Shown here: positions 963-57,706 of the stretch, piece by piece | How the letters are laid out: each line of letters starts with the position of its first letter | Numbering within the stretch: the stretch's first letter is position 1 | Source: Tethya wilhelma | Taxonomy: Eukaryota > Porifera > Demospongiae > Tethyida > Tethyidae | Length of the DNA stretch: 64,000 nucleotides | NCBI GenBank assembly: GCA_964030475.1 | Contig: CAXIPT010000001.1 | Location: 13,957,554 to 14,021,553, forward strand | Reading direction: 5' to 3' | Translations under genes and position numbers: made by a program | Notes under the pieces: generated by a model | Told to the model about the DNA's origin: nothing | Seen by the model: only the letters and a program-made list of their open reading frames with translations | Database searches by the model: none

Positions 963-1398
963 CATAGGCTGGACAGAGGTTGCCCTTTACAGCATCCATA
1001 ACTTCAAGAGTGTGAAACACTTTAGCCAGTCCAGCAAATGTAGTCTTTTTAATGTCAAACCACCAAATAAACACATCAGTCAAACATTGCTGAGCAAAAC
1101 TGGGTTTGTTGTGATTGTCCAATTGAATCTCATCCAGCTTGTACTTTGGAACACCAAGTTGAATGCCTAGCTCTTTCCATTTAGCTGCCAAAGGTAGTTT
1201 CACTAGCTCTGATAAGAAACTAGGAGGAATTTTACCTAAAAACAACCATCGATGATAATAAATTATAATTTTTGCATAAAATTAATTATAAACAAACTCA
1301 CTGTGGTCAGGCCCAGGATTAGTCTCAACATCTCCAGACAATAACAGTAGCAGAGTAAGAGACACTGCTAGTCTGTAAACTGTGTAAGAGAAATTCAT
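963..1398 (-). CDS. NLR-type gene A, first two exons: 2A-like signal plus DEATH-like domain (partial)
   Basis: Exon 1 (1398 to 1302) starts with ATG and encodes MNFSYTVYRLAVSLT, a run of leucines, then SGDVETNPGP. This is a hydrophobic signal sequence merged with a 2A-like motif (D-V-E-T-N-P-G-P). A GTGAGT donor follows in phase 1. Exon 2 (1235 to 963) follows an AG acceptor and keeps the frame. It encodes about 91 residues resembling a DEATH-fold domain (AAKWKELGIQLGV, then KLDEIQLDN) and ends at a GTAAGA donor, again phase 1. Known precedent: in sea urchin NLR-type proteins an N-terminal 2A-like signal acts as both secretion signal and ribosome-skipping site, giving secreted and cytosolic forms. 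The same dual fate here is inference. Later exons would lie left of the window. The segment is a near copy of 7478-7918. Confidence 0.7.
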
Positions 1399-1871: not shown

Positions 1872-2697
1872 TCATGACACTAGAGTGTTTTCAGTTTTCT
1901 TATGTTCCTAAAAATTGGAGTGCATTGATCAACCACATTGCTGTAGTATTATTAATTTTAATCCTTACTTGTAAACGTAAGACAGCTGCCTCTAAGTTGG
2001 TAATGAAATCATCTAATGTCTCTTCATAGCTGGTCAATTCAAACTGCAAAAAGTGAGGGGGAAACTGTTTTACGCAAGAAACAAAACACCAAGTAAGAAG
2101 AGTTGCTGGGGTCAAGATGACTCGGACCTTCTTACCAAGGTTTCATGTTGAGTTGCTTGAAAGTGTGAGGCTCTCTCAATCCTCTCTCCAGTGTGGACTG
2201 CATGAGAGTGATACAATTGGAATGAGGTCCTCTAATTGGATTTATGGCAAACTATAAGACATACCATCTATTCTTGAGGTTTCCAGTATACAAGCCATTC
2301 TCTCACTGTATAGGTAGATATACAACATTGTCTGATAGCACCAATTGAATTTTTAATACTCACTTTTCAAATTTGACATCATCTAATCTTTGCTGTAAGG
2401 TGTCCAGAAGTTGGTTTCTTTCACTGACAATAGCTAATGTTGATATAAAGTGATGTTTCAAATTCTGTGAAAAATTTTCATTTTCAGTTCTAACCTTGAT
2501 AAGAGCTTATTTCTTCTCTAATTTGTCTGTTACTTTCCTGTGTAGTGTATGTGCATGGGTTTATGTCTCACTATTACATGTTTCATGTGTACATAAAAAA
2601 CAACAACAACAACAAACATTGCAACATAAACATACACTTGCAACAATGTCATATGAGGAAGACATTTTCTCACCTTACACTGGCTGATCTCTTCAAT
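1872..2697 (-). pseudogene. Partial duplicate of the coiled-coil gene (3' exons only)
   Basis: On the minus strand this carries near-identical versions of the last exons of the gene at 10286-11640: the end of exon 2 (to 2674), the SNRQIREEISSYQ exon, the IVSERNQLLDTLQQRL exon, ERMACILETSRID, VHTGERIERASHFQATQHETL, the ELTSYEETLDDFITNLEAA exon, and a last exon at 1907 to 1872 ending in TGA. An AATAAA lies beside the stop codon. Splice sites are preserved. The 5' half is absent because the sequence stops at the N at 2698. It may be an alternative haplotype placed in series or a true segmental copy, so calling it a pseudogene is provisional. Confidence 0.6.
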
Positions 2698-2698
2698 N
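2698..2698. other. Single ambiguous base at a probable contig join
   Basis: Bases left of this N match 11098 leftwards (coiled-coil gene). Bases to the right are NACHT coding sequence without that similarity. The reading frame running from the NACHT domain into the coiled-coil exon is therefore probably an assembly artefact. Confidence 0.65.
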
Positions 2699-5600
2699 TT
2701 TGGAAGCTTCTCTATGCTTCTGATCCTTCTAGCTGCAGTATCTCCTGCAATATTTCGTGTGTGACGCTTAATAGCATGCAATGCAAAGATGTTGTACAAC
2801 TCTGTTAGTGTCTTGGGGAGGACAAAGTTCTCTTGCTGGTAGACAAAAAGCATAATTGCACAATTTAGAGGAATATAGCAAAGGGACATGATATCTAGAC
2901 GTTCATGAAGCTGGGTACAGAGTTCCTGAGCTTTCTCTGGATTATCAATAATGGTCTTCATGATACATTCTTTAATCATTTTTTCAGTGAATCCTAAAAC
3001 CTCAATGTGACGATTAATTGAAGACAGCTCTTGCAACCCGACTGATGCATAAGGTCGTGATGTTACAACAACAGAGCATTTAGTTAGTACCTTACCTTCA
3101 ATAATATTCATAAAAAATGAACCGCGTGATCTTTCTGCTGCACTAAGCTCATCAAAGCCATCAAATATCAGTAGAACTCGCTTACCACTTGTCTTTCGAA
3201 TATGTCTCACCACAGACTGATGTATGTCGGGATCATCATGATAGAAAAAATCATCAATTGAGCTAGCCTGAGACACTGATCTGTCTCGCAAATGAAGCAA
3301 GACTACCAGATCATAATCTTGAAGAAGCACACCATTCGCCCAGTCTTGAGTAAACTTACGGCTTAGAGTGGTTTTTCCAACTCCTGGTGCTCCATCAATT
3401 AGGACACGAAGAGAAAGCTTTCCGCCAGCAAAACAATGCAGAGGCTTTAATATTTGCGTAGTTTGCATCTCGGTTTTTTCATCACTTCTACCAGCTAATA
3501 TTTTATCTACATTTCCACGCACATAATCCTTTTGTACTTCTTTAATAGATTCATATTTGTCAGCATACACACCACGTTGACGTGGTATCAAAGCTAGTCG
3601 TATGAACTGTCCTCCCAGAGAGGGGGGCCAGTCTGAGTCAGAGAGCACGGGTTGAGCTAGGTAGATCTCTCGTAAGTACTCACTGTACCTTACAATACAC
3701 TCTGGAAGTTCAGGCCTTGATTCAGGTAGTTTATAAAAATCAATATTACCTGTATGCGTGCATGGATAAAATCATAAGATTACAAATTTAATATAGCATA
3801 TATACACATATATACGCATGTATGGTAAGCTGCATAAGGAACACTAGTGTCCTAATAACTGTTCATGTCTCACTAAATTGTGTCTGGTGGGATGTATATT
3901 CTATACTAATTCTAGGCTATAGGCTATAGGATCTGTTGCCTATATAGTAGTATTCTTCTTGAGCATTTATATTAGCGAAATGGAGGACATCAATTCCCTA
4001 GTCAGACACACATCTATAATTATTTGCGTCTCGCTGGACATAATCCTACAGGGATGTTACCGGGGAAAGAGGTACAGTCCTAGACCCTATACATTTTACT
4101 GGGGAAAGAGGCACAGTCCTAGACCCTACCTTTTCACCGGGGAAACTTGAGGCACAGTCCTAGACCCTACCTTTTCACAAGGGGAAAGAGGTACAGTCCT
4201 AGACCCTACCGTTTCACCAGGGGAAAGAGGCACAGTCCTAGAGTCACCGGGGGAAAGAGGCTGAGTTGTAGACCCTACCTTTCTATCAGCAGAAAGAGGC
4301 AGGATCTAGGACTAGACTAACACCGAGCTATAGAATATTGGACATTATAAAACACCAAGAATCATCATGCAACCTAGCTTTAGGAACAACAAAATAATGT
4401 TGTTGTTTTTTTTTATATAAAACATAGACATACCACAATCATATTATGTGACACAGTCTCACACATTTTATACCATTATGAAAATGGATTTCTTTCATTT
4501 CCTTTTCCATATCATGTTCACCAAGTCCATGAAGAGCCTTTATAAATATCTGAAGGTTTGCAATAGCAGTTGGGCTGCCTTTTTTCCACAATTCCAGTGT
4601 TTTCAAGAAGCACCATTGATCAGAATCAATCTCAGAAATTGAGTGCTTCTGTTGGTCTTGTTTAATGCCATCCAAAATATCTTCAGTTACACCTAACTCA
4701 TGACCAACATCTTTCCACTTGCTGGCCATTGAAAATTTCATATTTTTTTCAAAAGGTGAACTTGGAGCTGCGTGTAATGTAAATTTGAAATATTTTGTTG
4801 CAGTCAAATTAATCACAAGAATTATGAAAACAGAAGTAGAGTATATCATTAACCCTTGGTGCGCACATGTACAGCAAGGGTTATGGTTGTCGTTTTGTCT
4901 GTCTGTCTGTGTGTTTGTTCACTCTATATCTCAAAAATGGTAGCTCCAGTCATCAACGCGACAAACCATGGTAAAATAATTGAGATTATCTAAAAAAACT
5001 TATATGTAGCATTTATTTAACAAAACCTGTAGTTTCTGAGATCTGAGGCTTTCTGAGTGCTAAGCTTTGAGGCCATATGCACCTGCTGATCACACCCATT
5101 TGTTAGTGTGCCTCATTTACACTGTATATTAGCAAACTCTGTGCTATCTTATGTCATTCGGCTTAATAGATATGTGGCTTTTCACACAAAATTTATTTTC
5201 AACAAAAAGAATTGACTGAAAGATGAATGTGACAGAACGAGATGAGGGTAAGCTCACTTACTTGGTAGGTAAGTTTAGCGAGCAACAACACATATTCTTA
5301 AGCATGCTGTTTGCTCTTCTTATAAGCATGCTTGCTGTTTTGGCATATTAGACTCATTTATACATAATAGGTATCCTGGTTTAATGAGTCACAGCATCAT
5401 GCAAATATGTGTATGCCCTAGAGAATATAGGTCCATTGCACATGACACCACAAGTCAGACTGAGTATGTTGACATCAGCAAAGTCTATCCAGAAATCGGA
5501 CATATCTTGGAGTATCATCTATATATGCCTTCATGGAGCTCTTGATACAGTTTATACTGTAACTTTATAACTTGAACGCATAATAGTTAGGAAAAACAAA

Positions 5601-7918
5601 GAATAGGCACTAGTATTACAATCTTTTTTGCATGCTGCTGCTGCAAAAGTTTAGAGTTTTCAGTGTTTTTATCTCCCATAATATGCCTTTTGGGCATTGC
5701 CTATTACACTCAAAAATTTCCATATCTTAGCTTGTAAGAGTCAAAAGTACATACACAATAGCAGTTGTAAAGTGTTCGTTTATACATAATAGCAGCAATA
5801 ACATTGTCATCATAATGAGAATACAGGCATTCAATCGAGGCAATCAAGGTTACTTAATCTTAACCATAATTGGCAAAATGAGTACAATACTTGACACAAT
5901 GAAATGACACACAAAATTCATGAGATTATCCTCTCTCTTGATTTACTTCCACCCACTAATACTCAATATTCAGGAAAGGTTCTGGGTACCAGAAATGTAG
6001 GCACTCCTCTGCCAAGGGTTAATCGTGTTCCCTGACAATGCACAGTCTCACAATCATATTTGGGTTATTATCCTATGTGGCAGCGTGCTCGCACACACCG
6101 GGATATAGTTTTTGGTCTGGGCCATAATTTGATGTCCGCAATTTTTTTGGCCTGCTTGGGCTTTAGGGGTCTCTTTAATGTCAAAAAAAGTTGCCTGTAG
6201 GTGGTCAGCAATGCAAAGGGACATTTTAGAAGCTAGAAAAATGCTTGTTTTCCTTGTTTATGATTGCAGAAATGGCGATTTGCTGTTTCTGCACTCTTTC
6301 ATGCTATATGGCCACTTTAGATTACGCAGGTAGCAGGTAATCCGTATACTTTCCCATTGTAGTATCCAGAATTTGCATTCATGACAGGTACTGTAAACTG
6401 GGGGAATTCCAAAAGTTTTTTCTGGCATGGTAATATATCGAAAAAGACAGTTACCGATTTTTCCAGTGATAGAGCAGAAGTACCAGCAGTAATGAAAGCA
6501 GCTACGGTGCATAAGCCTCGGCACACTCCACTAGCATGCACAACTAAACATGTATGCATTAGTCTCACTAGCCAGACTCTCTGAAAAAATAGGCTAGTGA
6601 GCCTCGGACTAACTGAGAGGTGCCAGCCCGACAAATTCTAGCCTGCTGCAATCAAGAATGTACTGAGCTGTGGTCAGCCTAGTTATAATAATCTTTGTTT
6701 AGAAATTCATTGATGCTTGTGGTACTTGAATGCACAATGACTGATCATAAGGAGGAATTATCTCACTATTATCACACAAAGGAGGAATTATCTTTATAGT
6801 GAGATAATGCTTTGTGTAGAAGTTTCCATCATAGTAGTAGGTTAGTTGTGTGTGTTATTATTCAACTTGCAACCCGGGGCATTGAGTTACATACCTGTCC
6901 AAGCAGCTAAGCCAGCCAAACTCAAGTCCTTCTAGGAGTCCATCAGGATTCAAGCTCTACTGTTTCTAGATAACGCACACTATATGGGGCGTGATTGATG
7001 GGTGCAGTTTCAACGCTAAGTGCTCAGAGAAGCACAAAAGCCTCAAATCTCAGAAACTACAGCATTTTGCAAGATTCTACACAACAAATTTTTAGATAAT
7101 TTCGATTCATGAACGTAAGTACCTTCCATTTAGACTCTGGAGCTGCCGTTCTTCAGATAATCTAGTAACAGACAGACAGATACACAGACGAAACGACTAC
7201 CGTAATCCTCTGCACATGCTACGCATGCACCGAGGCTTAACTAGCTTCTATAAACGGCTTAAAAAGATTTGCTTGGATCTAGACTCCAGCAAAATGTCCA
7301 TTATTCTGGAATTACCCCAGTTTACCTTATGGCTGTATTGTCTATGTATTTAACTTTAGTTTACAGAGTCAGCTCAGTAGCTACAAGGACTGTCAAGCAG
7401 AGCTCCTTCAAGTAAGGTACTTGTAGCATACGGGGTACAAGCCTCTAAGCTCTTGTTTTTATAATAATTAATCTTACCATAGGCTGGACAGAGAATCTCC
7501 TTCCCAGCATCAATAACTTCAAGCGTGTGAAGCACTTTAGCCAGTGCAACAAATGTTGTATTAGTTTTATTGTCAAACCACAAATTAAACACATCAGTAA
7601 AGCATTGCTGAGCAAAACTGGGTTTGTTGTGATTATTCAATTGTATCTCATCCAGCTTGTACTTTGGAACACCAAGTTGAATGCCTAGCTCTTTCCATTT
7701 AGCTGCCAAAGGTAGTTTCACTAGCTCTGATAAGAAACTAGGAGGAATTTTACCTAGAAACAAAACAAAATCAATGATATTTATAATAATATTTTGCCCA
7801 TAAAATTATAAACAGACTCACTGCGGTCAGGCCCAGGATTAGTCTCAACATCTCCAGACAATAACAGTAGCAGAGTAAGGGACACTGCTAGTCTGTAAAC
7901 CGAATAAGAGAAATTCAT
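2699..7918 (-). CDS. NLR-type gene B: 2A-like signal, two DEATH-like domains, NACHT NTPase (3' end missing)
   Basis: Proposed exons on the minus strand are 7918-7822 (2A-like signal), 7753-7478 (DEATH-like 1), 4767-4474 (DEATH-like 2, MASKWKDVGHELGV) and 3749 to the N at 2698 (NACHT). Every internal junction is phase 1 with GT-AG sites, so the chain stays in frame for about 570 residues. The NACHT part shows Walker A GAPGVGKTT (3393-3367), Walker B LLIFDGFDEL and a TSRP motif. No LRR is visible because the gene stops at the probable assembly join. DEATH plus NACHT is the known sponge NLR arrangement, placing this in intracellular innate recognition. The hydrophobic signal ending in D-V-E-T-N-P-G-P suggests dual targeting, as shown for sea urchin relatives. 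Joining 7478 to 4767 across a 2.7 kb intron is inference from phase; an unseen exon or two separate genes is possible. Confidence 0.65.
4040..4310. repeat. Minisatellite, unit about 37 bp
   Basis: Six or seven imperfect direct copies of a unit containing GGGGAAAGAGG, CACAGTCCTAGACCC and TACCTTTTCAC. It lies in an intron of NLR gene B. The GTCCTAGACCC core resembles the terminal repeat of the element at 25588-26235, so it may have expanded from an end of that family. Confidence 0.7.
4855..5105 (+). repeat. Dispersed repeat family R1, plus-strand copy
   Basis: It starts near GTGCGCACATGTACAGCAAG, then CTGTCTGTCTGT, later GTAGTTTCTGAGATCTGAGGC, and ends near the CACACCC at about 5097. Reverse-complement relatives lie at 6985-7237 and 50245-50482. 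The order of motifs is shared although the sequences have diverged. No coding capacity is seen, and it could be a SINE or a non-autonomous element. Confidence 0.55.
5200..6980. other. Intronic or intergenic stretch without recognised genes
   Basis: AT-rich sequence between DEATH-like exons of NLR gene B. Minus-strand reading frames at 6258-6634 show no family motif. A block near 6500-6560 (CATAAGCCTCGGCACACTC) recurs at about 48730-48780, so part of it is dispersed repeat. Confidence 0.4.
6985..7237 (-). repeat. Dispersed repeat family R1, minus-strand copy
   Basis: Its reverse complement matches 4855-5105 in order: TAAGCCTCGGTGCATGC, GTCTGTGTATCTGTCTGTC, GTAGTTTCTGAGATTTGAGGC. It lies in the same intron of NLR gene B in opposite orientation to the first copy, so the two could pair. 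Confidence 0.55.
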
Positions 7919-8373: not shown

Positions 8374-10205
8374 TCAGAAAGTGATTCCAAAAACTAGCCT
8401 TAGATACTCTTTGTGAATGATGCTCAGCTGTGGGGCAATGTCAACTGGTACTTTCAATGTGAGAGGCACGAAACTTGGTTCAACTGCCTTGACACACGGT
8501 AGTGACAGATGATAGTGGCAGGTTTGCTCTTGCAGTGGGGTGATGAGTGTTCCAGATTTGTCACGAAACGACCTTCTTTCACACCTCGCTACAACTAGAT
8601 CATATTGGAGGGGAGGGAATTGAACCATTTCCCGATCTAAGAGACCTTCGGCACCCCTGGCACATTCTGATGTTCCCTTTAATGAACTTCACGTAAAAGG
8701 GGTTGGTGTTAGGCTGAGATGCAATAGTAGGGGCTGTGATAGTACCTGAGGCACTCACATACTGTCCAGACTGAGGAGAGAAGATGGCCACATTCTGTTG
8801 AGGGTTGGTCACCGAGAGAGTGGTTGGAGCGACTGTGTGAGGAGAGAAGGTGGCCACATTCTGTTGAGGGTTGGTCACCGAGAGAGTGGTTGGAGCGACT
8901 GTGTGAGGAGAGAAGGTGGCCACATTCTGTTGAGGGCTGGTCACCGAGAGAGTGGTTGGAGCGACTGTGTGAGGAGAGAAGGTGGCCACAAAAACAGTGG
9001 TTGGAGTGACTGTGCGAGGAGCAACTGTGTGAGGAGAGAAGGTGGTCACACTCTGTTGAGGGCTAGTCATTGAGAGAGCTGTTGGAGCGACTGTTACGAA
9101 AACTGTCACAGGAGTGTGTTGAGCAACCACTGAAGGGTGAACTGACTGAGTGGGTACATTAGATGCTGGTTGCAGAGTACTTGACTCCAAAGCTGGCCTG
9201 GTAGTGCAAAACTCGGGTGTCTTCTTTGTGTTAGACCTGCTCCTACTTCTCTTAGGCAGACCACCTTTCCGCCCACGACCTGAAGGTAATCCGGCCATCG
9301 AAAGTGTAGTAATATTGGGCTGCTTAGAGTGCGAGTTGTACCACTGCAGGAATGTGACTAAGTCTCCATTGAGACAGGCCACAGCCAATGTGTGAGAACA
9401 TATCTGTGATGAAGTCCAGTTCAGACAGGCATTGCTGCACTTGTATTGGCCACTGGGTGCCTTGGTAACCTTGTGAGAATCCTGAGGTGACGAATACGAC
9501 AATACCATTCTTGCAGATGTATCAGGACCAGGTGCGGGAGTGATAGCATTGTCCATATTCAGCAGGTCTTCAGCCTTGTTCCACATGTGCTTTAAGGTCA
9601 CCAGTGACATCTTGGTAATTCCGCTCTCTTCAGGACTGACTTCCAAGGACACAGAGGGAGCGCCACTGACAGATAGAGTAGAGGTGGAAGCAGATCGAGT
9701 GGATTCTTGTGCGATTCTTGATGCCTTCGACTTCATTGTGGCCTTATCAAATCGCTCAACAACTTCTCGCTTTTGCTGTGGCCTCATTTTTGACCACTCA
9801 GAGGGTGAAACAGCAAAGTGAGAGAACTGAGAAAGAAGCCGGTATTGACCCCTGCCAGATAAAGCTCGGATGACTTCATCTCGCTGTTGGCCAACTAACT
9901 TCTTCATTTCTTCGTTGAATTCAGGCCACTCCGACTGCTTGAAACTGACTTTCCTCTTTATCATGGCATTAATGCTCTCGGATGCATTAGTTGTGTAGAT
10001 GCAAGGAGGACAGCCCAAGCCCACACTTTCTCGGATGTCCTTCCTCATGTTGTAGCATACGACCTTGGATTTGTACCGAAGGAAGTACTCAAAGAATCTC
10101 GGACCAGATGGAGGTGCAAAAGGAGCCTCACGTGTGTTCCACACTTGCTTCAACATGGCTTTGTGTGTATCCCAAGGAAGAGAGAGTGGAAATGTCTTTG
10201 ATTGA
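8374..10205 (-). pseudogene. MULE-transposase-derived gene with SWIM-like zinc finger, frameshifted and 5'-truncated
   Basis: The main frame (10156 or slightly upstream, to 8600) begins with the end of a Mutator-type transposase domain (CIYTTNASESINAMIKRK). It continues into a SWIM-like finger (CSNACLN, then ICSHTLAVA), a basic stretch, about 150 Thr/Pro/Gln-rich residues with 22-residue repeats, and a C-terminal CQGCRRSLRSGNGSIPSPP. The natural continuation (QYDLVVARCERRSFRDKSG to LRLVFGITF, stop at 8374) is in the next frame, so one base is gained or lost near 8606. The catalytic DDE region is not present upstream. MULE proteins cut and paste Mutator-type DNA elements; this copy lacks the catalytic core and cannot act alone. 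It sits between the coiled-coil gene and NLR gene B and is missing from copy A. A domesticated gene is possible but the frameshift argues for decay. Confidence 0.65.
8780..9075. repeat. 66-bp coding minisatellite in the MULE-derived gene
   Basis: About four tandem copies of a 66-bp unit encode ATFSPHTVAPTTLSV and variants on the minus strand. The period is a multiple of three, so copy number can change without a frameshift. Open frames on the plus strand across the repeat are shadows. Confidence 0.85.
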
Positions 10206-10285
10206 AAGCAGGTTGAAGAGGAGGCAAAGTTTTATTATACAATAATATAGAAGGGGTAGATTCAAAATACACTCATTGAGTTTGT

Positions 10286-25040: not shown

Positions 25041-28000
25041 ATGGCTGATCGTAGATCCAGTTCCCTCCATAAATTCTGCCGCGATGGTAGCAGAAAGAAG
25101 ATCGAAAAATTCGTTGTAGGTATGGATGGATCCGAGCTCGCTGATCAGTTAGCCAGCAGACAGGGCATGTATGGCTACACACCGCTCCACGAGGCCGTGG
25201 TCACAGGGAAGAGTGATATTTTGGAGTTTTTGTTATCCAATGCTGAACACCCCCTTGTGAACTGCAAGGCAGCAAGTGGGTACACCCCTCTCCACCTAGC
25301 AGCTAGCAGTGGTCACAGAGAGTGTGTAAAAACCTTACTGAAACATGGAGCAAATATCAACAGCAAAGACGAGTATGAGAAAACACCAAAGCAGACGGCT
25401 GAGCTGAATTCAAAAGGAAGTATAGTACGCATGCTTCGAAGTGAAGGTATGCACACATTGAAGAGCCAAATATTATGTATGGTTAAAAAAACTCAGCATT
25501 TAGATATATAAACTCCTGTGGTGCGCTGTACATGACATTGTGCGTATGCCATGAATGTACAAAATTTCCAACCATAGTAGATACAGTCTAGTCTAGTCCT
25601 AGACCCCACCTCTTTCGCCAGCGAAAAATAGGGGTCTAGAAAAACTGGTGCACTTCCGGTGAAATTCTGGAATGTAGCTGCGTCATGATTCACGTGCAGC
25701 CTGACCTCAAAAATTTATTATGGCTCTTTCTGCATTTTCGCGAGCAAGTTTCAATCATTTTTTTTTGTGTCCAAGCAGGAGACTTTACAGTGAACATTAT
25801 TTAAGCCCTGAGAAAAGAGTAGTCGGTAAATAATCTTCACCGAATAGATCGAGTGCTTCAAGTCAAAAGTCACGCTAACCCTACCCACTGCAATTTCCGT
25901 AGCTCATGCCTTTGTACTAACTAAATTCTTATCTGTTCCATTTAGAGATGAAAGCACTAGCTTCAGCGATGTCAATGGTATGTTGTTTCGAGTTTCAACA
26001 GGTTTCAAAACTTTTGTACACACACGCAAAAATTCTACAGACTAGTCAGTTTACAAGTAACAATTTTTCGCGACTTCCACAATCAATGTTCAGTCATGTG
26101 ACATAATTGTCACATGACTTCATGTAAGCAATCTGATTGGCTCTGGCTATTTTTGAGCAGAGAACGCCAGAAGTGCGCCAGTTTTTCTAGACCCCTATTT
26201 TTCGCTGGCGAAAGAGGTGGGGTCTAGGACTAGACTAGATACAGTCCATGCTGTGGACAATATTGTCTATGACAGTACATGGTTCCTAAGGTTGCTAACA
26301 CTTATATAGCTTTGCTGTACTTCCTTCTACTGTGACAACATACAAGTTTGTGTAGTGTTGTGTGGTGTCCCTGTGTGACCTAATGTTATTTTAGCAACCC
26401 AAATATTGATTTTCCCTTTACTCCACATTGCTATCACACTACACTTCTGCAGAACTGGTCAAAGAAGTTGAAAATAATGGAGATAATTTGTCTGAACTAC
26501 TCAGAAGTGGAGCTGATCAACTTGAACCTGATTGTCTCAACAGAGCACTTGTTGCAGCTACAAGAAACAACCACCACCACAATATCGCTAAGCTTATCAT
26601 CAAAGGGGCCACTAATCTTGAAGAGTGCCTCCAGATTGCCAGAAGTGAAAAGAAGCCACAAGCTCGAGCCATGCTTCTTCTTGTTAAGGCTGCAAGGACT
26701 GGAAACAAAGCCATTATTAGAAAGCTGTTTGGAGAGAGAACTGAAGATCTCGAAAATCCAGATGACTATTCCGATGAGGATTTCAGAAACGTTCAAAAGG
26801 GAGTGCGAACTGGAGTGGTATCCACTGTGGTTCCAGTTGACATTGCTCGACGGCACGGTCAAGAAGCTGTCCGTGAAGAGCTATTGTTGAAGACTGATGT
26901 GAACAAGAAGGAGAGATGTGTGTTCTGGCACAGTCTTCGGCTGCTTCAGCTAGACATGTCCTGGCTGATGAAAATTCACTGGGTGAAAGATCTCCAGCTG
27001 TCTAGAAATGGTTTCAAGACACTTCCTCCTGAAATGGGAATCTACTTGAGACAGGTATAATTATGAAGGTACTGTGTTATCTAGATACAGGGCATTAATG
27101 TTTTCTATATTCTCATACATACTATAGGTAGTGAAGATAGACCTGAAAAACAATGAGCTGTCATCAATTCCGCAATGCCTGCTCAAGTTACCCAACCTTG
27201 AACAGCTGAATCTCTCACACAATAAGCTCGTGGAGTTGCCCCATGTCTCTAAGTGGTCCATTTCCCTCACAAAACTCAATCTCTCTTACAATCAGCTCTC
27301 CTCCATACCCCCCAACACAGCTGCACCAGCTCTCAGGTCCCTCAATTTGAGTAACAACCAGTTCAGTTCAGTACCCCTTTGCATCTGTTCCTTCACAATG
27401 TTGTATTCACTCGATCTCTCCAACAATCCCAATATTCTGACCCTCCCAGCCGAAATGGGAAGACTCTCCCATCTCAGTCAACTCAATCTGACTAACCTGA
27501 AGGATCTCAGTGATCCACCAAAGAACCTCCAGAAAGAAGCTAAAGATTGTATCCGCTACCTGAACAGCAAGCTACGCTGTGAAAGAGAGTTCTTCAAGAT
27601 GAAGTTGATACTCGTTGGCTGTGCCGATCGAGGAAAGACAACTCTCGTAGCTCGCCTCCAAGGTAAGAGTTGTGGAAACAAGTCCACAGTTGGAGTGGAG
27701 ATCAGTGAATGGTCTTTCAAGCCCTACCTGGGACAGAAGCAGTTCCATTTCAGCATCTGGGATTTTGGTGGCCAAGAAGAGTACTATGCCACTCACCAAT
27801 GCTTCCTCTCTCAATATTCTCTTTACCTGCTGCTCTTTAACCTCACTCACGGAGATAAAGGTGTCGAGGAATTGAAGCCGTGGCTCAACAACATAGCCCT
27901 TCGAGCTCCCCATTCATGTGTCATCATCGTTGGCACACATCTGGATCAAGTAGAAGAGGACCAGAGAGTGGAGGTGGATGCCTTGCTACAGAGGGTTGCA

Positions 28001-31000
28001 AGTCTTGCCCAGACGTACAACCACAAGCTTCAAGTGGTTGAAGTGATTCCTATCGCACTGACGAAATGCATTGAAAACATTGGTCACCTCAAAGACGCTA
28101 TCTACAACCACGCAGCCAACTACAAGACAAGAGCTGGCCAGCCGATTATGGGAAGGATGATTCCTGCTAGCTATCACGCTCTGGACAAACATCTTGAAAA
28201 CTTACAAAGAAAAGTTAAGAGTGGTCTTCTTGAGCCAATCATGCATGCAGAGGAGTTCAAGACGATGGTACAGCAGATGTCCCTGGCTGACATTCAGAAT
28301 GAGGATGATCTCAAGACGGCCACTCTGTTCTTGACAGACGTTGGATCGTTACTCCATTACGATGATCGTGGACACAACCTTCACGAGCTCTACTTTATCG
28401 ACCCCCGCTGGCTGTGTGACATGATGTCCAAGGTGGTCACAATCAGAGAGGGAAGCTGTTTTGTTCAGGACGGTATCTTGAATAGCAAACACATTCCATT
28501 GGTGTTCAAAGACGACCGATTCCCTTGGCAGTATTCTGAACAGTATTTTGCTCTCCTAGATCGATTTGAAATAGCTCTTCCCCTGGACAACAGGAGACTT
28601 CTAATTCCATCTTTGCTACCGGAGAAAAAGCCAGAGAGTTTTCTGGACGAGGACCCGGAGAATAAGCAACCTTTTTACGCTCGGTTTATCATGTTCAGCT
28701 CAGCTTCCACTCCACCTGGTTTCTGGAGTCGTCTTCTCTCCAGAATCATGCACTCTGTACCACATGTCTGCTTTGCTCTGGACAAAAAAATCCCATCTAA
28801 TCTTTCCCATGTGGTCAATAGATTCGAAATGTCGTCTTACGAGCTGATTCCAGAGATAGCAACTTCTGTAGGTCCAAGTAGTATGAGTGGTGGGTTCAAT
28901 GATAGTTCCCCACAAAGATCCAGGTTTGCCACTTCTATTCTACCATGCACACCTTCAACCGATTCGGATTCCTTCCCGAACAGCAGCAACCTGTCCTCTT
29001 CCCATCCCAGTATTAGTGGACCCATGTCTTCCATGGACTTCAGTACCGCGATGGGTGCACCCCATTTCCTTCCCAACTTTCCCGAGACTCTTCCTCACTG
29101 TGTACCCGAATCTTTCGATCTCGAAGAAATCCAACTAGAGTATTGGCGTACAGGCCTACACTATCAAGATTCAAGTGTCATGTTTAGGGTCGAGTCACTC
29201 TTGGACAGCAGGAAGTATCAAAGGGAGAACAAAGAAGGTGTGGTCATTGTAGCCTCACCTAACGGTGTTGGGAAGAAGATTGTTGGTCAACTTGTCGATC
29301 TTATCGTCTCCCTGGTCAATCAGTGGTATCCTGGTCTTCAAGAGCCCACACACACCTTGTTCTCTGGCCTGGAGCAGGTGGTGTCGTGTTTTGAATGTGT
29401 GAAGAAAGGCCGAGCCAAACCGTACGAATTCAGTATTGAACAATGCCTCTCAATCATCACCAAGAGTAAAACTAAAATTGAATGTGGTTACTTTAGCAAT
29501 GGATCTGATATGAACCACACAGTCGAACTAGTAGACCTTGTACCAGATCTCCTTCTCCACGATATAGGTACAGAATTTCTGCTTCAAGATGAAGAAGTCG
29601 TTTTTGAAGAAAACAGAGCTTCTCTTCTTGGAAAAGGTGCGTACGGTACAGTTTACCAAGGAAAATGCCGGGGTAAATCAGTTGCCATCAAGAAGTACAA
29701 AAAGAAAAATGAAAAAACCTTATCTGAGTTACGTTCAGAGGCCAAACTACTGCTAGAGTCTCACCATCCTTGTCTGGTGTGCCTCGTTGGAGTGTGTATG
29801 CACCCCATCATGGCCATCGTGCTGGAGAAGGCTCCTTGCAAGTCACTCGAGTATGTTGTTCTTGAGAGAAAGCTGCCCATCCATCGTCTCACGATTTTCA
29901 GAATCACAGCCGAAGTAGCCGCAGCCATATACTTTCTTCATCAAAAGGGCATCATCTTTCGTGACCTCAAGGCTGCTAATGTCCTTCTGTGGACTCTTGA
30001 CCCAGACTCGCTGTGTCACTGCAAGCTCACTGACTTTGGAATTGCCACTTACCTTGCTCCAGTTGGTACAAGGGGCTTAGAAGGAACCAAGGGTTTCATT
30101 GCACCTGAAGTCTTGCACATTGGCAAGAGAAAACAGAGATCTATCTATGACCACAAGGCAGATATCTTTTCCTTTGGAATGTTTCTCTACCAACTGATTA
30201 CCCGTAGATATCCATACCACAATCTCGATCCTCTTAAGATTAATCGTGCTGTGGAATTAAAGGAACGGCCGTTCCTCGAAGATGTTGCTGTAGCTCGTAC
30301 TGGCTACCATTACCTCACTCAGCTTATGAAGAAGTGTTGGAAGGACAACCCCAAGCATCGACCAGAAGCCAGTGATATCATCAGAACCGTCTGCCTCTCT
30401 ACAGTACAGTCAGTGATGTGTGTTGCACCCATCAAGAGCAGACTATCGCTGCGACAAGCCATTGCCATCACTCCCTCTAACTTCCTTCAAGCCGACAAGA
30501 AACACAAGCTGAATAGCGAACTGTGGGTGGTCTGCAATAGTGCAATGGGTGCAGAGATCAACATGTACAACACTCACACCATGGAGAAGGTCAACGAGAC
30601 CTCGATCAAAGACAACCAGATCCACTGTTTAGCTCTGTGTGGTGACTGGGTGTGGGTGGGGTCAAGAGCTGGCATCAACTATAGCCAGATTGATATCTTC
30701 AGTATATCCAAAGGAGATCGCATGCACAGTTTCAGGATGTGTGAAACTAGTTTGGTCTCATGTATCGCTAGCACAAAGAAGTCCGTATATATTGGCACAT
30801 TGGAAGGCTATTGTTTCTGCTTTGCAAATGACATCGTCAAAATAAGAGCCGACTGCAAGCCAAGATGTCAGTTTGTTTCAGAGTACGCCATTGATGGGAT
30901 CACCACCACTCAGCATTGTGTCTGGGTCTCTCACACTAAATTCATCACTTTTCTCAACTTCGACAGTCTCACTAAAGAGGGATCATCTATCCATCGCAGG

Positions 31001-32161
31001 CAGGAAGACAAAGACACGTATGTTGGTCAACTGTCACCATCTCCAAATGGAAGCACCATCTGGAGTGCTCATTTGGGTGACACTATCCTCACCGCATGGG
31101 ATGCACATCAAAGGACGTATTCTTTTGATGTCAATGTTGCTGACCACCTTAGAGAGATCTACAAAGATGCGTCTGATGAGGATATGGTCATCACTGCCAT
31201 GACGCCTGCTCTGGACTGTGTGTGGGTTGGTATGGCAACGGGGCACATTGTGGTGTTCCATCAGAGTGAGATGCTTTCGTGGTACCATCCTTACACTGGG
31301 TATGTCCGTTTCTTGACGTGTATTCCGTGCAGTGGACCGTGTGAGATGGAGCAGAGCATCGTAGTCAGTGGAGCCAAAGGTTTCCGGTCAATGGTACATC
31401 TAGTGCATGAGAAGAGTGAAGAAGACACTAAAGACGTAGCCGGGACTGTCGTGATGTGGGAGGCATACCAGGCAAGGACCGTGAGACAGATCAAACTTAT
31501 CGAAAGAGAAGCTCCTGGATTTCTGGCCAACCACAGCTCTGTACGTAGAATGATCGTTGATGGAAAGTTCAAGAATGGCACATTCATTTCAAACATAAAG
31601 ACTGTGGACACACCATACCAACCAGACTTTGATGTCACTCCCGAACTGGACGTGAATTTGAGTGAACATATTTCTGAAAACTCTTCCGGATCTCTAGAAA
31701 TGGCACAGACCGAATACTACAGTCTCAGAACCAAAGACACTAACACACACAACGGCTCTCATTCTACATTCAAGACTTGTTTGGATGGTTCCTCTCCCCA
31801 GAAAGTAAAAGGCACACTTGAAGAACCAGAAGTTCCACAGATTGTGAAACCTCGGACGCGTACAGCTAGTGGCAACGCTGAGGTCTTCACCATTAAACTA
31901 CCCTCCACTGATTCTAAACAGACAGTTCGTCTTGCTATTCCCAAACCAGTGAAACTCAAAGTCCTTCTGAGTGAGTTACAGGTCAATGCTTGCATCAATG
32001 AAGACACCTATCAGTTGAAATACTATGTAAATGAGATGGAGAACGTGAGAATAGACACTCAAAATGATTTAGAGATGTATTTAAGTCTACCTCAAAAACC
32101 TGAACTAACACTAGCACCTCCTAATGTTGAAAAAATCCAAGAAAGTGTGTCTTTTGCATAA
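25041..32161 (+). CDS. LRRK-type ROCO kinase: ankyrin, LRR, Roc, COR, kinase, propeller, PB1-like
   Basis: Three coding exons (25041-25446, 26453-27054, 27128-32161) join in phase to about 2013 aa, close to human LRRK1 (2015 aa). Ankyrin repeats fill roughly residues 1-300 (GYTPLHLAASSGHRECVKTLL). LRRs run about 320-470. The Roc GTPase has GCADRGKTTL near 506, switch DFGGQEEY and GTHLDQ. COR follows, with a Ser-rich insert at 28870-29060. The kinase has GKGAYGTVY, VAIKK near 1190, FRDLKAANVLL near 1281 (Phe for the usual His, as LRRK2 has Tyr) and DFG near 1305. A repeat-rich propeller-like region follows. The last about 85 residues look like a PB1 domain (KYYVNEMENVRIDTQNDLE). LRRK proteins are GTPase-regulated Ser/Thr kinases acting at membranes and cytoskeleton. 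The 5.0-kb last exon is unusual. An in-frame Met also exists at 25011. A polyadenylation signal lies at about 32264. Confidence 0.9.
25588..26235. mobile_element. 648-bp MITE with long terminal inverted repeats in ROCO intron 1
   Basis: The ends are inverted copies of about 75-80 bp (GTCTAGTCCTAGACCCC, CTCTTTCGCC, GAAAAATAGGGGTCTAG, AAAAACTGG). They are flanked by TAGATACAGT at 25578-25587 and 26236-26245, a 10-bp target duplication typical of Mutator-type elements. No transposase is encoded. Confidence 0.85.
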
Positions 32162-33826: not shown

Positions 33827-34055
33827 GTGTTTCCTGCTTGACAAATGTACCTGCACTGAACTTAGAAGACGTTAGAGAATAAAATACATTGGGTAGGGAT
33901 CGTTACAGTTAAGATGCTCAATTTCTTTGCTCAGTTTCAATTTCCTGAATCAGCAATATTTTGTGCTAAATCAGCAAATTATCTCCTCCAATTTCCAATT
34001 TGGAACACAGGAACAGACGAGATTAGAAGCTGAGGGAACTTTGGACGAAAAAATC

Positions 34056-35255
34056 ATGTTCAGATGTTCATGTGTATGGAAAAAGAACTTATTTCGAAAG
34101 TGGTGTGCCCTCTTATTGTTAGTATTAATATTTTGTGGTTTGGGCATTCAGTTTTGGTATTCATTGAAAGCAAATAACTCTATTTATACTGAACGACTGT
34201 TTATAAGATCCTTCTCTATTTTTCATGATAACAACTATTATGATATTGCATCAGCTGAACCAAATGGAGAACCAAGGAAGGGTGCATCCAAACCAACTTT
34301 AGTCCATCCTACTCCTGTACAAACTACATTATCTCCTGTATCTTCAGTATCACCACCTACTGTTCCTCATTTAGAATCATCTGTACATGAAACTCAATCA
34401 ATTGTAACACATCATCTATTGGTGGTTATTGTTCTATCAAAAGATCGAGAAAGACGAGATGCCATAAGAGACACCTGGAAGAGCACTCATTACCATCAAC
34501 CACATTACAATGTTACTGTCAAGTTCAGTTTGGGAACTTTAGGACTGAATTCAACAGAATTAAAAGAATTGGAAGATGAAGAAATGGAACATCATGATTT
34601 GCTATTGCTGCCCCAACTGATGGACTCTTACACCAACCTCACTAGAAAGGTGCTGTACAGCTTTGAATGGGTGGACCAGAATCTTAATTATTCGTACTTG
34701 TTTAAATGTGATGACGACAGCTTTGCCCTCCTGGACAGAATGGCACATGAGTTATCCATTAGGCCCCCAGACAGAGGTCTCTACTGGGGATACTTTACTG
34801 GTAATAGCTTGCCTCAGTTTGATGGGCCTTGGGCAGAAACAAATTGGCTTGCATGTGACACCTACTTGCCCTATGCACTTGGTGGAGGTTATGTGTTATC
34901 ATCAAATGTGGTGCATGGAATTATTAAGATTGCTGATGTGCTAACGCACTACAGCAGTGAGGATGTTGCAATGGGTGCCTGGACAAGTTCCTTTGATATT
35001 GAACGGAAGCACGATGTACGTTTCGATGTAGAACAATTTTCGAGAGGATGTTCAAATGATTTCATTGTAACTCACAAACAATCCTTCCAGGATCTCTACA
35101 AAAAACATGAACAACTAATCACAAAAAATGTCTTGTGTGAAAAAGAGTTGATTTGGACTGAATACACATACAAGTGGTCACCGAAACCTTCAAAATGTTG
35201 TAGACCCTCTATACCTAGAAAATACAGACGACACTTCAGAAGTCACAAATCATAA
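34056..35255 (+). CDS. GT31 beta-1,3-galactosyltransferase-like protein 1, 399 aa
   Basis: Intronless type II Golgi glycosyltransferase. A short cytosolic tail (MFRCSCVWKKNLFRKW) precedes one membrane span (CALLLLVLIFCGLGIQF), a Thr/Pro/Ser-rich stem and the catalytic domain. GT31 hallmarks are RRDAIRDTWKS, KFSLGTLGL, a DSYTNLTRKVLYS stretch, the metal-binding KCDDDSF, GGGYVLSS and EDVAMGAW. The family adds galactose or GlcNAc in beta-1,3 linkage to glycoprotein or glycolipid acceptors; the sponge acceptor is unknown. An earlier in-frame Met at 33927 would give an unusually long tail, so 34056 is preferred. First of four tandem same-strand paralogues. Confidence 0.85.
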   Translation: MFRCSCVWKKNLFRKWCALLLLVLIFCGLGIQFWYSLKANNSIYTERLFIRSFSIFHDNNYYDIASAEPNGEPRKGASKPTLVHPTPVQTTLSPVSSVSPPTVPHLESSVHETQSIVTHHLLVVIVLSKDRERRDAIRDTWKSTHYHQPHYNVTVKFSLGTLGLNSTELKELEDEEMEHHDLLLLPQLMDSYTNLTRKVLYSFEWVDQNLNYSYLFKCDDDSFALLDRMAHELSIRPPDRGLYWGYFTGNSLPQFDGPWAETNWLACDTYLPYALGGGYVLSSNVVHGIIKIADVLTHYSSEDVAMGAWTSSFDIERKHDVRFDVEQFSRGCSNDFIVTHKQSFQDLYKKHEQLITKNVLCEKELIWTEYTYKWSPKPSKCCRPSIPRKYRRHFRSHKS

Positions 35256-35306
35256 TTCATTGCATACTGATCATTAGGCCTCAACATGTGCAGAGGATTA
35301 CTGTTG

Positions 35307-35359
<53 letters not shown>

Positions 35360-35516
35360 NNNNNNNNNNNNNNNNNNNNNNNNNNNNNNNNNNNNNNNNN
35401 NNNNNNNNNNNNNNNNNNNNNNNNNNNNNNNNNNNNNNNNNNNNNNNNNNNNNNNNNNNNNNNNNNNNNNNNNNNNNNNNNNNNNNNNNNNNNNNNNNNN
35501 NNNNNNNNNNNNNNNN
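35360..35516. other. Assembly gap of 157 N
   Basis: Run of N directly after a (GT)n microsatellite. The true length is unknown. Confidence 0.98.
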
Positions 35517-36233
35517 ATGATACTGAGGATCCATATGAGGGATCAAGCATAAAAATGAAGTAGTCATGTGCCGAAATTGAGACATTCCTTGTTCCAATAC
35601 TTTTTACCGCACTGCCCATTCCTACACTACTTATTTTTTTGAAATTTTTGCTACTTGTGAAATTACTGGTTGAAGGATTTAGTCTGACAAAATATAGAAA
35701 GTCTCAAAGTTTCAACTGTGCTACTTGATCATTTTGAATACTGTGCATTTAAGTTAAGTTCTTACAAATGTTCTTTTTGTGCAGAAAAAAAAATCTTGAT
35801 GCATAGATTCGATGCTATCATGATGCGATGTTGGCAGCTCCTCAGTTTGTATGTTTATTTTGCCGTACATGCCGCCACTACAAAAACTAGCACCAAGCTG
35901 AAGCTAGCTATGACTTTATTTATCCTCTTGCGGAGGATTTGCTCCAAGGAGGCTTGTGTTGTCAATAAATATGCATAATGTAGACTTTAGTCCATGCCTA
36001 CTGATGGCCATGCAGACTGGAAACATTGGAAAATTCAATTATTTTATGCTTCAATGCTTCGAAATTATAAGCCTAAGCTTGCTTATACCTTGACTTGCAC
36101 GTAAGGTACGTAGTAGAATAGAGACTTCGTACCGACGAAGTCTCTGTGTCTATTATCTGTTTATAGTATTACATCTGCTTACACATTCTGTTCGGGATCT
36201 GCAGTGATATCGCGGATCCCCCGGAGATTGAGA

Positions 36234-36359
36234 TACGACACGCGAGTGTCAATTAGCGCATTCCAATCACGTGACCACTATAGTTTGGTATTGGATTTGG
36301 TCACGTGCACCTACCATGCTGAGTCAGCAAAAGCATTGAATTGACACTCGCGTGTCGTA
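36234..36359. mobile_element. Inverted-repeat element with 21-bp perfect ends
   Basis: The left end TACGACACGCGAGTGTCAATT (36234-36254) is the exact inverse of 36339-36359. Inner CACGTGACC and GGTCACGTG blocks also pair. It is related to 63798-63945, which shares the CACTCGTGTCGTACCTCC end and the inner CACGTG motif. Confidence 0.75.
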
Positions 36360-36561
36360 CCTCCTCTGATCTAGATCGAGAGAACCTGGTCACAGATTGG
36401 AATGCAATAACAGACTTGCCAGTTCAGCAAAGGCGCACTCGTGTCGTACCTCTTCCCCGATCCCGGATCCCTCTGCTGGTCAACAGCCAGTCAGTGAACA
36501 AAAATCTATGTCAAAACAGACGTTTACATCCACATACGTTCAGAAGGAGTCCTAGATTATA

Positions 36562-37743
36562 ATGAATACTAAGCTAAAGCTTTCAAGAGCTTCTCGAGGA
36601 TTACTACTTGTGTTCCTTCTAATGCTGCTAGGCTTTGTTATCCAGTCTGGTTGGATGGTCATAAATCACCACAATTCAAGTTTAAAACGGGCCCAGAGAG
36701 TTCATGTATCTTTGTTTTATGTAAATTCAACTAGTAACGATATCCTTCCAACCGAAACTCAATCTCTGACAGCTGAAACTCATTCACAGACCACCAATTC
36801 CAAAGCAACCACATTTCATGAAAGCAAGCGGCTGCAACCTACACCATTCCCTAGGTCTTCTATGATTGAAAGTGTGCCAAAAGCACACCACCTGTTGGTA
36901 GTTATTGTGTTATCAAAACCTTCAAACAGAGAGAACCGAGATGCCGTAAGAGACACCTGGAAGAGCACCCATTACCATCAACCACATTACAATGTTACTG
37001 TCAAGTTCAGTTTGGGAACTTTAGGACTGAACTCAACAGAATTAGAGGAATTGGAAGATGAAGAAATGGAACATCATGATTTGCTATTGCTGCCCCAACT
37101 GATGGACTCTTACACCAACCTCACTAGAAAGGTGCTGTACAGCTTTGAATGGGTGGACCAGAATCTTAATTATTCGTACTTGTTTAAATGTGACGACGAC
37201 AGCTTTGCCCTCCTGGACAGAATGGCACACGAGTTAGCCACCAGGTCACAAGACAAAGGTCTCTACTGGGGATACTTTATTGGGAATGCCTACCTCAAGT
37301 TTGAAGGCCCATGGGCTGAAGAAAATTGGTTTGCATGTGACACATATCTCCCTTATGCTTATGGTGGAGGTTATGTGTTGTCTTCGAATGTGGTGCGTGG
37401 AATTGTTAAGATTGCTGATGTTCTAACATACTTCAACAGTGAGGATGTTGCAATGGGTACCTGGACAAGTTCCTTTGATATTGAACGGAAACACGATGTG
37501 CGTTTCGATGTAGAACAAATTTCAAGAGGATGTTCAAATGATTTCATTGTAACTCACAAGCAATCCTTGCAGGATCTCTATAAGAAACATCAACTGCTAC
37601 TTACAAAACATGCTTTTTGTGAGAAGGAAGAAGTCGTACGTCAGTACATATACAAATGGTCATCAAAACCTTCGAAATGCTGTAGATACCCATCAAGAAA
37701 GAAAAAGCTTCACATACACACAAGACCTAAGACTTCACTGTGA
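36562..37743 (+). CDS. GT31 beta-1,3-galactosyltransferase-like protein 2, 393 aa
   Basis: Same type II plan as copy 1: MNTKLKLSRASRG tail, membrane span LLLVFLLMLLGFVIQSG, then a Thr/Gln-rich stem unlike that of copy 1. The catalytic domain has RDTWKS, KCDDDSF, GGGYVLSS and EDVAMGTW. From RDTWKSTHYHQ to the DDDSFALLDRM block it is nearly identical in DNA to the other three copies, whereas stem and C-terminus differ. The C-terminal CCRYPSRKKK is basic. It is intronless. Confidence 0.87.
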   Translation: MNTKLKLSRASRGLLLVFLLMLLGFVIQSGWMVINHHNSSLKRAQRVHVSLFYVNSTSNDILPTETQSLTAETHSQTTNSKATTFHESKRLQPTPFPRSSMIESVPKAHHLLVVIVLSKPSNRENRDAVRDTWKSTHYHQPHYNVTVKFSLGTLGLNSTELEELEDEEMEHHDLLLLPQLMDSYTNLTRKVLYSFEWVDQNLNYSYLFKCDDDSFALLDRMAHELATRSQDKGLYWGYFIGNAYLKFEGPWAEENWFACDTYLPYAYGGGYVLSSNVVRGIVKIADVLTYFNSEDVAMGTWTSSFDIERKHDVRFDVEQISRGCSNDFIVTHKQSLQDLYKKHQLLLTKHAFCEKEEVVRQYIYKWSSKPSKCCRYPSRKKKLHIHTRPKTSL

Positions 37744-38047
37744 TAGAGTCAGGGTGTTCTTGATTGATTGGATTGTGATACAGCAGATTATTAATTCTAA
37801 TGACAGGTCCATGATTTTTTTAATGCAAAATGCTTAACATAATTATACTGTATAATTTCAATGGAAGAATGTATGACCTTATGACAGACTCTAAGAGGGG
37901 TGGAGTCTAAGAGGAATATTATTATGATTATGTATGGTCCAAAGGTCATCAAGAATGCAAAATCAGCAGAGGTCAAGCGGTTGAGACTCCGAGTATGTGA
38001 CAACAAAGGCTCTACATATCTTACATGGTCTGGCCTAGGTATGTCTG

Positions 38048-39073
38048 ATGTGTCGCAGAAAGGTCAAACTGTTCTTTGTATTAATTGTTTTGGGTTTAGG
38101 AATTCAGTCTGTATGGTATGCCACGACAATACCCAATACTCTGGTAAACCTATCAACGATGACAAACAAGTCTGTTGTTTTGTATAAATCTATTGCAAGT
38201 CCTGTCCCAGTTTCTCCTTCTGTGTTTGCATCCTTTTCACCTGGCTTGGTGGTTATCATTTTATCAAAAGATCGAGAAAGACGAGATGCCATAAGAGACA
38301 CCTGGAAGAGCACCCATTACCATCAACCACATTACAATGTTACTGTCAAGTTCAGTTTGGGAACTTTAGGACTAAATTCAACAGAATTAGAGGATTTGGA
38401 GGATGAAGAAATGGAACATCATGATTTGCTATTGCTGCCCCAGTTGATAGACTCTTACACCAACCTCACTAGAAAGGTGCTGTACAGCTTTGAATGGGTG
38501 GACCAGAATCTTAATTATTCGTACTTGTTTAAATGTGATGACGACAGTTTTGCCCTCCTGGACAGAATGGCACATGAGTTAGCCACCAGGTCACAAGACA
38601 AAGGTCTCTACTGGGGATACTTCATTGGGAATGCCTACCCCAAGTTTGAAGGACCATGGGCTGAACCAAGTTGGTCTACATGTGAGATATATATCCCCTA
38701 TGCTCTTGGCGGAGGCTATGTTTTGTCTGCAAATGTAGTTCATACAATTGCTCAAAATGCTGATGCTTTGACTGTGTACAAAAGTGAAGATGTTTCAATA
38801 GGAGTATGGACATCTTCAATGAATATTGAACGAAGGCATGATATACGTTTTAATGTTGGTGAGGAAACAAGAGGTTGTGCTAATAACTTTATTGTAACAC
38901 ACAAAATGTCAACAGAAGACATGTACAACACAAGTAAACTCCTCCTCACAAGAAATCATCTCTGTGTAAAACAATCCCTTGTTGCATTGTACATGTACAA
39001 TTGGTCTAGGAAGCCACTGCATTGTTGTAGCCCAAGGTCTGTGAGACGTAGAAGACTGTATTACAGATCATAG
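38048..39073 (+). CDS. GT31 beta-1,3-galactosyltransferase-like protein 3, 341 aa
   Basis: The shortest of the four: an MCRRKVKL tail, span FFVLIVLGLGIQSVWYA and a brief stem, then RRDAIRDTWKS and KCDDDSF. The C-terminal third is the most divergent (NADALTVYKSEDVSIGVWTSSMNIERRHD, then RGCANNF). The metal-binding triad and the EDV-x-x-G-x-W motif are kept, so it should be active. This split between a uniform core and divergent tail fits gene conversion of the core only. A Met at 38048 gives a normal tail. Confidence 0.87.
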   Translation: MCRRKVKLFFVLIVLGLGIQSVWYATTIPNTLVNLSTMTNKSVVLYKSIASPVPVSPSVFASFSPGLVVIILSKDRERRDAIRDTWKSTHYHQPHYNVTVKFSLGTLGLNSTELEDLEDEEMEHHDLLLLPQLIDSYTNLTRKVLYSFEWVDQNLNYSYLFKCDDDSFALLDRMAHELATRSQDKGLYWGYFIGNAYPKFEGPWAEPSWSTCEIYIPYALGGGYVLSANVVHTIAQNADALTVYKSEDVSIGVWTSSMNIERRHDIRFNVGEETRGCANNFIVTHKMSTEDMYNTSKLLLTRNHLCVKQSLVALYMYNWSRKPLHCCSPRSVRRRRLYYRS

Positions 39074-39415
39074 TGTTCAAATCAAGTCTAGACCCTTTCC
39101 TAGACCTTCTCCTTTTGGGGATCCAAAAATGACGTGTTGCACATGAAAATTGATTTGTGTAGCTGATGACCATTACCAGATGAAATCCTGCCCCGCCCCG
39201 TAGGTTTACTTTTGTGCGCATAATTATACTAGCGCGTATATATAGCCTCGTAATAATTACGTACCCTGGCGCACGCGGGGGGCCGGGGTACAAAGTAAAA
39301 TATGCCAATTGACCACATGCGGATGGGCACAACCAAAACACAAAACAAGACCGAGATCGAGAACAGATGACAGACGTGGTTCAGAATGTTCACAAGGAGT
39401 CATTATTTTATTATA
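39074..39415. other. Intergenic spacer between galactosyltransferases 3 and 4
   Basis: It contains a CTAGACCCTTTCCTAGACC block (about 39089-39110) like the end of the element at 25588-26235, and a GC-rich CGCACGCGGGGGGCCGGGG patch near 39271. No gene is seen. Confidence 0.45.
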
Positions 39416-57632: not shown

Positions 57633-57706
57633 CCCAAAATGTCGTTTATTCATGCAGCATAACCCAACCCACCAAAAACTTGCAATCAAAATAACCTGTA
57701 CATTAT

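Follow-up and report, generated by a model that had tools for sequence, protein, structure and literature searches.

On the minus strand of a 64,000-nucleotide stretch of the sponge Tethya wilhelma genome (contig CAXIPT010000001.1; hereafter the window), a short first exon encodes a hydrophobic leader carrying a 2A-like, or StopGo, motif, and predicted splicing places this leader ahead of the Death and NACHT exons of an immune-type gene, gene 1. We propose that the leader is self-releasing: StopGo would free it during translation to give mainly a cytosolic receptor that starts with proline, together with a minor unskipped fraction directed to secretion, a reading to which we assign a probability of roughly 0.57. 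This kind of leader is already known from sea urchin. In T. wilhelma such leader exons appear to precede several immune-type architectures, not one gene.

The leader exon and its gene

Exon 1 of gene 1 (7822..7918, minus strand; 97 nt, ending in phase 1) runs from an ATG at 7918 down to 7822 and through to a phase-1 GTGAGT donor, encoding MNFSYSVYRLAVSLTLLLLLSGDVETNPGPDR plus one nucleotide. As the original prediction had claimed, it contains the 2A consensus: the octapeptide core DVETNPGP is read at 7829..7852 of the minus strand, with LLLLSG directly before it. The initial methionine lies 22 residues ahead of the core, the leader counts 29 residues to the Gly and 30 to the last Pro, and its 11-residue hydrophobicity is 2.83. 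While the proposed coordinates and reading of the exon stand, its supposed end exactly at NPGP does not, since the exon continues for two codons (D, R) and one base; the predicted donor GTGAGT occupies 7816..7821 (minus strand), 7 nt past the NPGP codons.

The predicted splice joins the leader in frame to exon 2 (7478..7753, minus strand), which is bounded by a phase-1 acceptor and a phase-1 donor and matches Pfam Death at 2.8e-5, above the cut-off. Exon 3 (4474..4767, minus strand) is a second Death exon at 3.8e-4 and 21.0 bits, below the cut-off of 22.6, and exon 4 (2674..3749, minus strand) encodes NACHT (PF05729, 1.9e-26); the first three introns of this gene model are all predicted to be phase 1. 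The claimed order of phase-1 join, Death exons and NACHT is thus borne out at the level of predicted splicing, and the same leader–Death join is found in an annotated protein, P0123, described below. The earlier assignment to an NLR-type gene holds for NACHT but not for the C-terminal LRR. No LRR was found in gene 1 by Pfam among the window frames, and Pfam matches nothing in the sole frame (80 aa) listed for the interval from the NACHT exon to the neighboring gene 2, although short, split LRR exons could escape such a search. With no LRR found before gene 2, we describe gene 1 as Death-Death-NACHT and not as a full NLR. We note that the leader exon is immediately preceded, on its own strand, by a 543-aa open frame without a Pfam match at E<=0.001 (window 8603-10231, minus strand).

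Gene 2 carries the second leader copy of the window. Its exon 1 (1302..1398, minus strand) encodes MNFSYTVYRLAVSLTLLLLLSGDVETNPGPDH, and its exon 2 (963..1235, minus strand) is a Death exon; the nearest same-strand NACHT match lies ~10 kb downstream of its 2A, beyond the window edge. Both window copies contain DVETNPGP, an instance of the D(V/I)ExNPGP core of 2A sequences, and the LLLLSG of gene 1 is an L-rich upstream context of the 2A kind. In pairwise alignment the two leader exons are 95% identical with diverged flanks: identity begins just ahead of the ATG, falls in intron 1, returns at the acceptor and exon 2, and falls again past the exon 2 donor, as expected of two coding exons. Codons 1-30 of the pair differ by three synonymous changes and one non-synonymous change.

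Related leaders in the genome and in Ephydatia muelleri

The pattern DxExNPGP occurs at 78 sites in the 124.6-Mb assembly and its reversed form at 0, with roughly 0.4-1.1 sites expected by chance from base composition; on the reversed-pattern control, a chance motif was rejected. Relaxing the first core residue adds 12 GNVERNPGP sites (N for D), for a total of 90. Sequence context was read for 30 of the 78 sites, the remaining 48 being known by position and core letters only, and it divides them into 27 sites that are not retrotransposon-type and three that are. In each of the 27, a phase-1 GT lies no more than 10 nt from NPGP, exactly at +7 nt in 23 and at +1 or +10 in the other four. Hydrophobicity over 11 residues is at least 2.8 in 23 of the 27, and in 22 an in-frame Met precedes the core by 22-33 residues; at L016, L020 and L021 a longer open frame comes first and the position is not clearly N-terminal. 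Across 19 leaders of the VERNPGP family, mean identity is 84% in the exon, 31% just inside the intron (ungapped) and 32% upstream, and dN/dS is 0.35 (n=19; 171 non-independent pairs). Because these loci were retrieved by the motif, conservation of the motif among them is not itself evidence.

Some loci carry more than one site. Two 2A exons stand in tandem at L056:1000-1730 and L050:1000-1870, a D-type followed by an N-type (GNVERNPGP), possibly as alternative first exons; the open frame of the first 2A exon in L056 offers, ahead of the core, a single Met 7 residues upstream. Four 2A sites, 5-6 kb apart, lie within open frames of 883-1010 aa at C13:183783-200551 (plus strand).

The association was also tested starting from the Death exon. 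Used alone as a query, the window Death exon finds 10 genome loci at E<1e-10 (a split copy on C14 counted once), eight of which carry a same-strand 2A at a distance of 69-501 nt upstream; a separate leader-only search ranks these eight highest. Around the 90 sites, a listed match to NACHT or Death within 10 kb is found downstream on the same strand in 14 cases, upstream on the same strand in two, downstream on the other strand in one and upstream on the other strand in none. When sites were placed at random on five contigs, a control covering 58 of the 90, the 11 of 58 observed compared with a mean of 0.68 and a maximum of 3.

Downstream sequence was taken for 21 sites in 20 regions (~7.5-8 kb for 20 sites, 1.3 kb for gene 2). 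The next element is a Death or Death-like exon in 16 of them, a ROCO-type frame in one, retrotransposon-type sequence in three and unassigned sequence in one (L041). A call of Death or Death-like is based on Pfam Death or on homology to either of two exons, that of the window and that of L058, L058 being itself the query in the latter comparison. The 16 sites before such an exon on the same strand are L039, L040, L043 (two), L044, L046, L047, L049, L050, L051, L052, L053, L055, L056, L057 and L058; Pfam Death is above its cut-off for gene 1 only and weaker in L039, L046, L049, L050, L055 and L056. A candidate phase-1 acceptor lies near the start of 14 of 16 downstream frames checked, some of which have candidates in other phases too, and the filter used returned none in L046 and L057.

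Further downstream on the same strand, we find domains presumably encoded by the genes that the leaders head: NACHT in L043; NACHT and LRR in L050; weak Roc/COR in L049; ankyrin in L052, L053 and L055; ankyrin, Death and COR-A in L056; AIG1 and fn3 in L058; fn3 in L057; the RIG-I C-terminal domain in L039 (57.5 bits, with DEAD below the cut-off); and TPR with CHAT in L044, about 4 kb further on and of uncertain linkage. In the frame downstream of L045, ZU5 scores above the cut-off and COR-A below it. A Death-like start read there by eye gave no Pfam match and was rejected, and L045 is left out of the Death count. In the two ROCO-type loci, L045:629-1036 and L049:617-1080, a shared segment of about 125 residues with an MPLWSxxxWRxRI motif lies ahead of the 2A (32% identity overall), and the 2A may there split off an upstream protein of about 130 residues.

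Two of these associations are narrower. The link of the L058-type Death-like family to Pfam Death is weak, with two of six members touching it (best 0.0026) and one more approaching it at 0.13; a sequence search against solved Death folds gave a best E of 0.17, to a protein that is not a Death protein, and was discarded as support. With the L058 exon as query, 10 of the best 30 matches have a 2A within 3 kb upstream; 36 of 150 matches were checked in all, namely these 30 and six picked by eye, two of which have a 2A. For RIG-I-like genes a general link was rejected, a listed 2A being near one of 11 matches to the RIG-I C-terminal domain; the other ten cluster at C5:1273197-1322018 with no listed 2A close by. 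Several of the genome profile lists, those for RVT_1 and the L058-type exon among them, scored part of their candidates and hence give lower bounds.

The motif is also present in a second sponge. At E<=0.001, a homologue search confined to the first 125 residues of the window model yielded two proteins, both annotated gene models: P0122 (EMCRGX_G002839, Ephydatia muelleri) and P0123 (Em0001g2631a in EukProt), the latter assigned to E. muelleri by its EukProt name and its 70% identity to P0122. Both contain DVETNPGP, and the database records of both name no 2A. The N-terminus of P0123 (start MPFVLIMQLLLLLSGDVETNPGPLGQ) reads MPFVLIMQLLLLLSGDVETNPGP, with a leader of 23 residues terminating in LLLLLSGDVETNPGP, followed by Death (26.8 bits), NACHT (33.8) and LRR_6 (32.9), all above their cut-offs. 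In P0122, LLLLLSGDVETNPGP stands at about residues 112-126, ahead of Death and NACHT. The roughly 110 residues before its 2A begin MGVDLATYRARIG and resemble, by eye, the WRxRI start in L045 and L049. From SGDVETNPGP through Death, the two proteins are 31% identical to the window model over 90 residues. Similar to gene 1, both thus have LLLLLSGDVETNPGP ahead of Death and NACHT, with P0123 carrying it in its N-terminal leader; they differ from it in the LRR of P0123, in the single Death found in each as opposed to two, and in the 2A of P0122, which lies about 120 residues in and is not N-terminal.

Skipping, secretion and the competing explanations

In the mechanism that we propose, the nascent leader would stall the ribosome at the NPG|P codons and be released without formation of a Gly-Pro bond. 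Resumed translation would yield a leader-free, cytosolic Death-Death-NACHT receptor with an N-terminal proline, which should be the main product, while a failed skip would leave the leader attached and a minor fraction may then enter the secretory route; the split between skipped and unskipped product would be set by the interaction of the leader with the ribosome tunnel. At 29 residues to the Gly, the leader would, given the length of the ribosome tunnel, still be inside it at the skip decision, before the signal recognition particle (SRP) can see it, and SRP would matter only if the skip fails. The data themselves show the sequence, the exon structure and phase, the duplication, the constraint and the matching arrangement in an annotated E. 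muelleri protein, whereas transcription, skipping, a cytosolic product and minor secretion are inferred. Production in two compartments is the weak step of the reading, and skipping may be the selected function with secretion as its side effect.

The sea-urchin parallel drawn in the original prediction is documented: Roulston et al. 2016 (PMC4981915) describe N-terminal 2A-like signals in NLR proteins, of which SpNLR2A has a 26-residue leader and recodes at about 80%. According to the same source, 85% of the product is cell-associated and 15% is in the medium, against 44% in the medium for a skip-dead control, and one sea-urchin leader acts as a signal sequence whose unskipped product is secreted. 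The leader of gene 1 shares with SpNLR2A its N-terminal position (within about 30 residues), its hydrophobicity, its D(V/I)ExNPGP end, its short length (26 residues there, 30 here) and, by predicted splicing, its fusion to Death and NACHT. It differs in belonging to another phylum and in being known from sequence alone, and similar sites here also head RIG-I-like, ROCO, ankyrin, AIG1-fn3 and NACHT-LRR frames.

Viral StopGo sequences offer a second comparison. Li et al. 2026 (PMC12846837) report an LLLLSG-like group before viral StopGo cores, and activity in lysate both for the L-rich motif 6, which resembles this group, and for a variant with p12 = N. The viral L-rich motif 2/6 sequences thus share with the window leader the hexapeptide before D(V/I)ExNPGP, and p12 = N recurs in the 12 further T. 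wilhelma sites; unlike them, the sponge sequences sit in host genes, N-terminally, on a separate exon with a phase-1 donor.

The strongest alternative, which we regard as less likely, retains skipping and takes the hydrophobic run to be tunnel-binding StopGo context, with a cytosolic receptor and secretion without a role. The purpose could be the proline N-terminus (a possible degron), a by-product derived from the leader, or the tuning of output. L-rich contexts do form a StopGo class of their own (PMC12846837). The three retrotransposon-type 2As score 0.93, 2.72 and 2.68 in hydrophobicity, two of them close to the 2.83 of the window, and the RIG-I-like locus keeps its 2A with a hydrophobic core of only 1.36. 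In the two ROCO-type loci the 2A lies about 125 residues past a conserved start, and in P0122 it is similarly internal. Most of the downstream domain types found here are usually cytosolic, with fn3 as the main exception. Against a purely skipping role stand the hydrophobic stretch of the VERNPGP family, which at about 20 residues exceeds a six-residue context, the in-frame Met at a leader-like distance in 22 of 27 sites, and the signal-sequence function of one sea-urchin leader (PMC4981915).

Several observations also weigh against the self-releasing leader that we favor. The hydrophobicity scores just given do not separate retrotransposon-type from other sites cleanly, and GT at +7 is found in one of the three retrotransposon-type sites as well. 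Full activity in one virus needs >30 native residues (PMC12846837), and the leader here has about 30. Two window-type Death exons, at C1:26855907 and C3:12032081, have no listed 2A within 3 kb; among the eight such Death loci with a 2A, in-frame stops interrupt the Death exon at two and a split affects one, so that some may be pseudogenes. The search with the L058 model returned nothing at E<=0.001, and NPGP occurs in 0 of 120 proteins listed (of 504), which resemble exon-level predictions.

An origin from a non-LTR retrotransposon, whose 2A fragment would have been exonised and would persist as a host exon or a relic, seems improbable and bears on origin more than on present function. Elements bearing the same core motif are present in the genome: L012/L042 and L019/L048 have reverse-transcriptase matches, and L025/L054 was assigned by a similar Cys-rich stretch only. 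In L048 and L042, both non-LTR-type elements, the 2A lies ahead of a Cys-rich region; RVT_1 matches L048 at 1.4e-36 and also has a match in the region of L042. The retrotransposon 2As lie inside a long open frame that continues into a Cys-rich region and lack a leader exon, whereas the leaders studied here occupy an exon of their own whose donor position recurs. That the window copies belong to a retrotransposon was rejected, as no endonuclease or reverse transcriptase was found in the scanned window frames and no window match stands among the best 150 of 812 RVT_1 candidates.

That the exon is a plain secretion signal with an incidental NPGP and no skipping is more improbable still, short, hydrophobic and N-terminal though it is. 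The excess of 78 motif sites over 0 in the control argues against an incidental motif, as does its retention in E. muelleri next to a Death region of only 31% identity. No motif-less leader copy was found either, with 73 of 73 and 58 of 58 leader-search matches overlapping the motif, a result biased by queries that contain it. Finally, it is scarcely credible that the leader exon is unspliced to the Death exon or that the copies are pseudogenes, because, for all the stops and split Death exon in some family members, exons are conserved while introns have diverged, donor and acceptor phases match, Death and NACHT are biased to the downstream same strand, and the joined form exists in the annotated E. 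muelleri proteins.

In other sponge work, the Dysidea avara NLR repertoire (PMC12909245) similarly includes many NACHT and Death genes with a Death-NACHT architecture; it differs in that the accessible text of that paper is without the terms 2A-like, NPGP and signal peptide. No sponge 2A leader was found in the open-access literature searched. A survey of cellular proteomes for 2As by Rao et al. 2025, cited in PMC12846837, lay outside this scope and may list some.

Window neighbors and wider meaning

Elsewhere in the window, a 1677-aa open frame (27128-32158, plus strand) with LRR, Roc, COR-A, COR-B, a protein kinase and an LRRK2-type beta-propeller represents an LRRK2-like ROCO kinase. Four adjacent frames matching Galactosyl_T (33897-40495, plus strand) form a tandem galactosyltransferase cluster, and a protein with an F-box and an F-box-associated region is encoded at 56697-57722 (minus strand).

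For sponge immunity as a whole, a tentative and broader picture is possible. In it, duplication and exon shuffling would have placed the StopGo leader exon before tens of immune-type genes, with six or more architectures between them, so that skipping would act as a shared, tunable control (release, localisation, N-terminal proline) over much of the innate immune repertoire, with paired D- and N-type leaders as alternative first exons at some loci; given E. muelleri, this would be an old sponge trait. The finding opens the question of whether sponge and sea-urchin leaders were acquired separately. A natural panel of leaders is available in the 27 sites read that are not retrotransposon-type, and the roughly 90 sites, of which most of those read sit in short exons ahead of immune-type genes, would together with the E. 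muelleri protein make a natural system in which to ask why immune receptors shed their leaders and whether skipping is regulated.

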